The position numbers were made by a program, and so were the translations under genes. 64,000 bases of DNA from Prochlorococcus sp. scB241_528O2 (GTDB taxonomy: Bacteria; Cyanobacteriota; Cyanobacteriia; PCC-6307; Cyanobiaceae): assembly GCA_000634115.1 (NCBI GenBank), contig JFLJ01000137.1, positions 1 through 64,000 of the forward strand, written 5' to 3'. Below, piece after piece: positions 57,722 through 58,876 of the stretch (position 1 is its first letter; each line of letters starts with the position of its first letter). The notes beneath the pieces were generated by a model that saw nothing but the letters and a program-made list of their open reading frames with translations, had not been told where the DNA came from and did no database searches.

Positions 57722-58876
57722 TTAAAAATTATTTTTTGAATGATTCTCCAATATTCTTTGATTTATTTTGGGTATATTTTCTTTAAATTTAAAAAACCCT
57801 TTCTTGGCGAACTGCCACGCAAATAAATCTTCATCTCTCACTAGATTAAATATATTTTTATTGTGTAAATTCTTAAATTTAATTATAAAGTCATAATTTT
57901 CTCCCACTCCAGGGTAAATAATGTCTATTTGATTAATATTTCTAAAAGTAACTTCCAGTAAATTAGGATCAATCTGTTCAACATTATCAAATTTCTCTAC
58001 GAATTCAGATACCAATTCTTGTTTAAATTTAAAAACAGAGGCAGACAATTGGATTTGTCTTTGTTCATTCTTTAAAAGGATAATGTAAATCTTTTTATAG
58101 CTTGGAAGTAAATCTTTTAGAGTTGCAAAGTGCAGGTCATTTTCAAACATAATCAGATTATCTGATTTAGGATTCATATCATTTTTATAAATCTCATCTT
58201 CTAATGTTATTTGATTAGATTCTTCAAGAAAAATTTGTTGATTACTTATTTTTTCTGAATTAAATCTATTATTTGAAAATTTTCTGAGGTTTGATGATGA
58301 AAAAAGATATTGCTTTCCCTTCGTTTGCAATCCTCCGACCCATCTCCAGCTAAGGAGATTAGAGGCAGCATCACCATCAAAAAGATATTTAAAGAAAAAC
58401 TTTGCTCCCAATTGCCATGGGAGGCCTAAATTAAATATCCAAGTACTCGCAAACCACATTCTTGTATGATTATGCAAATAGTTGTACTGCTTTAATTCAT
58501 GGACCCAAGAATTAAAAAAATCTATTTCTGTATTGCCATTAGTTGCTCTTTCATATAGCTCATAATCAAAATCGAGGTTGTTTTCTGAAATAAAATTTCG
58601 CCAAACTTTAGGTCTATTTTCCATCCACCCTTTCCAGTAAACTCTCCAAAATATTTCTTCAACAAATTTAGTTGAATTTTTGATTTTGTACTTACTTTTA
58701 ATATCATGAATCAGATCATATTCCGATAATATTCTATGAGTAATGAAAGGTGATAATTTTGAAACTGATCCTTCATTATTTGGCCCAAAATCAAAATTTC
58801 TTAACTTTGCATAATCATTAATTTTGTATTTCGCAAAATTTTCCCAAAGATTTTGAGCTTTTAATAAAAATGACAT
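57722..58876 (-). CDS. Photolyase/cryptochrome-like FAD-binding protein, apparently permuted domain order
   Basis: YLHNHTRMWFASTWIFNLGLPWQLGAKFFFKYLFDGDAASNLLSWRWVGGLQTKGKQYLF matches the photolyase FAD-binding domain, located N-terminally. Confidence 0.8.
   Translation of the reverse strand: MSFLLKAQNLWENFAKYKINDYAKLRNFDFGPNNEGSVSKLSPFITHRILSEYDLIHDIKSKYKIKNSTKFVEEIFWRVYWKGWMENRPKVWRNFISENNLDFDYELYERATNGNTEIDFFNSWVHELKQYNYLHNHTRMWFASTWIFNLGLPWQLGAKFFFKYLFDGDAASNLLSWRWVGGLQTKGKQYLFSSSNLRKFSNNRFNSEKISNQQIFLEESNQITLEDEIYKNDMNPKSDNLIMFENDLHFATLKDLLPSYKKIYIILLKNEQRQIQLSASVFKFKQELVSEFVEKFDNVEQIDPNLLEVTFRNINQIDIIYPGVGENYDFIIKFKNLHNKNIFNLVRDEDLFAWQFAKKGFFKFKENIPKINQRILENHSKNNF

Follow-up and report, generated by a model that had tools for sequence, protein, structure and literature searches.

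The gene at positions 57722..58876 on the minus strand of the window, the stretch of 64,000 nucleotides of Prochlorococcus DNA that was analysed as a whole, is with high confidence best explained as phr7 of high-light-type Prochlorococcus, encoding a photolyase of the NewPHL class. Its product carries two domains in inverted order, with the FAD domain first and the other domain second, and it is most likely a single-strand CPD photolyase. Phr7/NewPHL proteins are relevant to the origin of photolyases, because short forms and inverted forms have been proposed to be close to the ancestor, and to the survival of a very abundant ocean phototroph in sunlight. The phr7 gene studied here touches one question, namely the possible descent of its C-terminal domain from the antenna domain.

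Reading frame and domain order of phr7

The phr7 CDS (57722..58876, minus strand; 384 aa plus stop) starts with ATG and contains no internal stop codon, and its assignment rests on the ORF, the Prochlorococcus orthologs, the tree and PMC9426592. The frame opens four codons 5' of the Met, leaving no room for an upstream alpha/beta domain, which agrees with the first-pass annotation that no antenna domain lies ahead of the FAD domain. The same annotation had assigned residues about 1-205 to the C-terminal catalytic FAD domain of photolyases, and Pfam, hhalign and PDB matches bore this out (residues 1-205, 58262..58876, minus strand). PF03441 (FAD_binding_7) was the sole Pfam family in the protein, matching residues 71-194 above cut-off (55 bits, E 8e-15), and in phmmer, residues from about 13 to 201 aligned with solved photolyases, such as that of A. 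nidulans (1tez/1owl), in their C-terminal catalytic half. When the FAD-domain profile was compared with the catalytic domain of canonical photolyases, an hhalign probability of 99.8 was obtained. Since the only Pfam match lies on the N-terminal side, where the phmmer alignment also falls, and the tail matches no Pfam family above cut-off, the inverted domain order was confirmed.

The FAD domain is followed by a variable linker (residues 206-239, 58160..58261, minus strand), delimited by poor conservation and varying length in the alignment, and by a C-terminal alpha/beta 'Z-domain' (residues 240-384, 57725..58159, minus strand), delimited by an AlphaFold2 model, fold matches and invariant residues. 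Pfam, NCBIfam and PADLOC searches gave no name above cut-off for this C-terminal domain; a sub-threshold match to CoaD was found at residues 258-336. PF00875 matched neither the phr7 protein nor 13 relatives in Pfam, so the class I order of an N-terminal PF00875 and then the FAD domain does not apply. Class I CPD photolyases (A. nidulans, E. coli PhrB) share the catalytic FAD domain and the CPD-site residues with phr7, but they have the antenna domain first, a longer FAD domain and a Trp triad, where phr7 may have a dyad. A promoter scan yielded no more sites than were found in shuffles.

Class membership and distribution

In a survey of 81 picocyanobacterial genomes, Haney et al. 2022 (PMC9426592) named the gene phr7 and described Phr7 as an N-terminal FAD domain plus a C-terminal "Z-domain", present in all HL and LLI Prochlorococcus, with MIT9302 as an example. 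That report equates Phr7 with NewPHL, a class of CPD photolyases that act on single strands and are known from Dinoroseobacter shibae and Methylobacterium mesophilicum (Emmerich et al. 2020, via PMC9426592). Inverted domain topology and CPD repair in single-stranded DNA were ascribed to NewPHLs in a 2026 paper (PMC13274461), and a Trp dyad was reported for the D. shibae NewPHL (PMC8948257).

In the FAD-domain tree all 22 inverted proteins clustered together (support 100/99), separated from canonical proteins and from those of the Phr4 type. The 22 were the window protein, orthologs of it from Prochlorococcus and alphaproteobacterial proteins other than the D. shibae and M. mesophilicum reference NewPHLs. 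The gene, its domain order, its conservation and the identity of its residues were directly established, and sequence and tree assign phr7 to the NewPHL class, membership being judged through relatives in the same bacterial class (Alphaproteobacteria) and secondary citations. The first-pass reader had rediscovered the published domain inversion from sequence alone and without tools, and had implied that the swapped-domain protein was novel. The observation is real but not new, because the inverted class has already been published as Phr7/NewPHL, Prochlorococcus included (PMC9426592), and phr7 adds no new class.

Compared with the Phr7 of Prochlorococcus (PMC9426592), the window protein showed the same genus, the same order of FAD domain and Z-domain, the same lack of Fe-S cysteines, and the same occurrence in HL and LLI lineages with absence elsewhere in the family; only ordinary sequence divergence separates them, the MIT9302 ortholog being 85% identical. 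With the NewPHLs of D. shibae and M. mesophilicum, as described in PMC9426592, PMC13274461 and PMC8948257, phr7 shares the inverted topology and the conserved CPD site; a Trp dyad instead of a triad is also listed as common, which for phr7 rests on a loose alignment at the distal Trp. The difference lies in the identity of about 29-35% between phr7 and the alphaproteobacterial members compared here. Outside the NewPHL class, marine Synechococcus and Cyanobium had the FAD domains closest to that of phr7, in Phr4/Phr5 and Phr6, which share the reverse domain order (PMC9426592). Phr4/Phr6-type proteins have four Fe-S cysteines, and Phr4/5 are two genes in most strains (PMC9426592), whereas the phr7 protein contains zero cysteines, so that Fe-S cluster ligands, including the four conserved cysteines of the Phr4/Phr6 type, are absent.

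Full-length phr7 protein was found in dozens of Prochlorococcus genomes at 85-92% identity, with the gene order kept (DoxX family, phr7, ligase-like gene, short-chain dehydrogenase, murD). Across 80 loci from other genomes the protein was nearly always full length; most copies were 85-92% identical, and four were 68-71% identical. Homologs at 40-43% identity occurred in a second lineage of the Prochlorococcus family, and a close copy was absent from the remainder of the sampled family. This distribution agrees with the published HL and LLI pattern of Phr7 (PMC9426592). Full-length homologs (29-35% identity, 91-95% query coverage) were also encoded on alphaproteobacterial plasmids of Ruegeria, Niveispirillum, Peteryoungia, Asticcacaulis and Novosphingobium.

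These results bear on whether the gene could be an artefact, in which faulty assembly or gene calling joined a truncated photolyase to downstream sequence unrelated to it. The source assembly is indeed fragmented (231 contigs, 88% complete), and a neighbouring gene contains a frameshift. However, the same full-length ORF and gene order recur across dozens of independent genomes, and the protein also occurs in the second lineage and, at full length, in alphaproteobacteria; such an error was therefore excluded, its probability being negligible. The domain order noted in the first-pass annotation was upheld in this respect.

The ligase-like gene adjoining phr7 is small and encodes the adenylation domain of an NAD-dependent DNA ligase (PF01653; 59151-59901, plus strand); it is split by the frameshift near an A run. 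Of 89 related loci, 72 had it as one ORF. It was not found in 14, MIT9302 included, some of these 14 loci being short.

Positions 1-126 of an IMG/VR 'viral' contig hold the last part of a phr7 gene from Prochlorococcus, and the host DoxX-type gene comes next. Since the same contig bears this flanking host gene, the 126-bp hit looks like host DNA labelled viral and not a viral gene. Further viral scans gave no viral relatives of phr7. The matches in phage records were partial, confined to the FAD domain and 24-26% identical, and those with an annotation were phrB.

Catalytic residues and putative reaction

In the phmmer alignment, E74, W77, N136, M140 and W179 of phr7 fell on E283, W286, N349, M353 and W392 of the A. 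nidulans photolyase, its CPD-binding residues. N173 fell on N386, the N5 asparagine, and W177 and W154 fell on W390 and W367, the electron-relay tryptophans. All of these phr7 residues were invariant in 22/22 aligned class members. R350 of canonical CPD photolyases is replaced by His137 in the phr7 product, and the distal relay Trp appears to be absent, as would fit the dyad of the D. shibae NewPHL (PMC8948257): phmmer aligned Ser97 with it, though loosely in this region, and a second alignment put the column elsewhere.

Light-driven CPD repair is the best inference on account of the invariant CPD-site, N5-Asn and relay residues, the putative Trp dyad and the lack of cysteine. For FAD binding, CPD repair and single-strand preference, we reason from the characterised NewPHLs. 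The all-helical N-terminal domain would bind FAD, and photoreduced FADH-, on absorbing blue or UV-A light, would donate an electron to a cyclobutane pyrimidine dimer that has flipped out and is gripped by E74, W77, N136, M140 and W179, after which the dimer would split and the electron would go back. W177 and W154 may act as a short electron relay reducing the flavin, and the preferred substrate would be a CPD in single-stranded DNA. The C-terminal alpha/beta domain may pack on the catalytic domain and close the FAD pocket, rather than being a proven antenna; Emmerich et al. reportedly proposed that the NewPHL C-terminal domain closes this pocket.

Proteins of the photolyase superfamily have repeatedly lost repair and gained a sensor role, and the phr7 product could likewise be a light sensor (cryptochrome) without repair activity, a view that His137 in place of the DNA-contacting Arg would fit. 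However, no variation was seen at the N5 asparagine or at any of the other CPD-site positions examined, the conserved neighbours (DoxX, SDR, ligase-like, murD) include no signalling partner, and the characterised class members repair CPDs according to PMC9426592. A sensor without repair activity was thus considered very improbable, and a CPD photolyase is preferred.

Fold and origin of the Z-domain

AlphaFold2 predicted residues 232-384 to form a compact alpha/beta domain (pLDDT 82, pTM 0.69) with five strands at fragment positions 9-13, 31-35, 68-71, 85-89 and 110-114. The full-length model, built from 29 Prochlorococcus sequences with the more diverse alphaproteobacterial ones left out, had a mean pLDDT of 50 and was unusable for the FAD domain. 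The Z-domain is conserved in the alphaproteobacterial homologs and ends in an R..D...W.....GF motif, and D247, G325, R347, D350, W354, G360 and F361 were invariant in the class alignment. In Foldseek, where no Z-domain match reached E 0.001, phosphopantetheine adenylyltransferases (PPAT) came top by E-value with a query TM of about 0.45; the Fe-S photolyase PhrB stood lower by E-value and had the highest query TM among the matches listed (0.53), the matched part of PhrB being unstated in the output. Against viral structures, weak matches only were obtained, including a fowlpox photolyase (query TM 0.51). The predicted structure supports a Rossmann-like fold for the Z-domain.

The first-pass annotation had likened the tail to the photolyase N-terminal domain and proposed that the antenna domain had moved to the C-terminus. 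The predicted alpha/beta domain agrees with the likeness, but the VWFRxDLRxxDN resemblance was seen by no profile for the Prochlorococcus protein. The proposed move was supported in part: it is consistent with the inverted order, the Rossmann-like fold and the fold matches to PhrB and HUP-type adenylyltransferases; on the other side, the photolyase N-domain families PF00875 and DPRP had no Pfam match in 14 class members. The class-wide C-domain profile, Prochlorococcus included, gave an hhalign probability of 0.1 against canonical N-domains, which is noise level. Phr5, a stand-alone antenna-type domain of Synechococcus, scored 95.5 in the same test, keeping a recognisable similarity to the canonical N-domain that the Z-domain of phr7 does not. 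A profile of alphaproteobacterial C-domains only gave weak probabilities of 22.7 against Phr5 and 5.4 against canonical N-domains, both above 60/60 column shuffles. Canonical and PhrB N-domains also failed to match each other, so this profile test has low power for antenna-domain homology. Descent of the Z-domain from an antenna domain is plausible, and an antenna chromophore on it is unsupported.

A further reading is that phr7 encodes a circularly permuted photolyase: the canonical PF00875 antenna domain, along with an antenna chromophore, would have been relocated to the C-terminus and would still harvest light. The predicted five strands, the query TM of PhrB and the alphaproteobacterial scores above all shuffles speak for it, but 0/14 members matched PF00875 or DPRP, hhalign probabilities were 0.1 with the profile containing Prochlorococcus and 5 to 23 with that of the alphaproteobacteria, PPAT enzymes outranked photolyases by E-value, and no antenna-binding site was identified. 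We regard this reading as unlikely. That the Z-domain of Prochlorococcus is a true relocated antenna domain with a light-harvesting cofactor, which would make Phr7 a permuted two-chromophore rather than a single-chromophore photolyase, appears more doubtful still, and the NewPHL-class photolyase remains our preferred explanation.

As for other photolyase genes, the source assembly had just one of the Phr2 type besides phr7 and lacked any with PF00875; PF00875 genes were present in 21/21 near-complete congeners, and the missing gene is probably a gap in the 88% complete assembly. Many cyanobacteria carried FAD-domain genes that stand alone, are about 280 aa long and have their cysteines in clusters. 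Three such loci were examined in full and showed no obvious antenna-type gene adjoining, and these genes probably represent the published SPL type.
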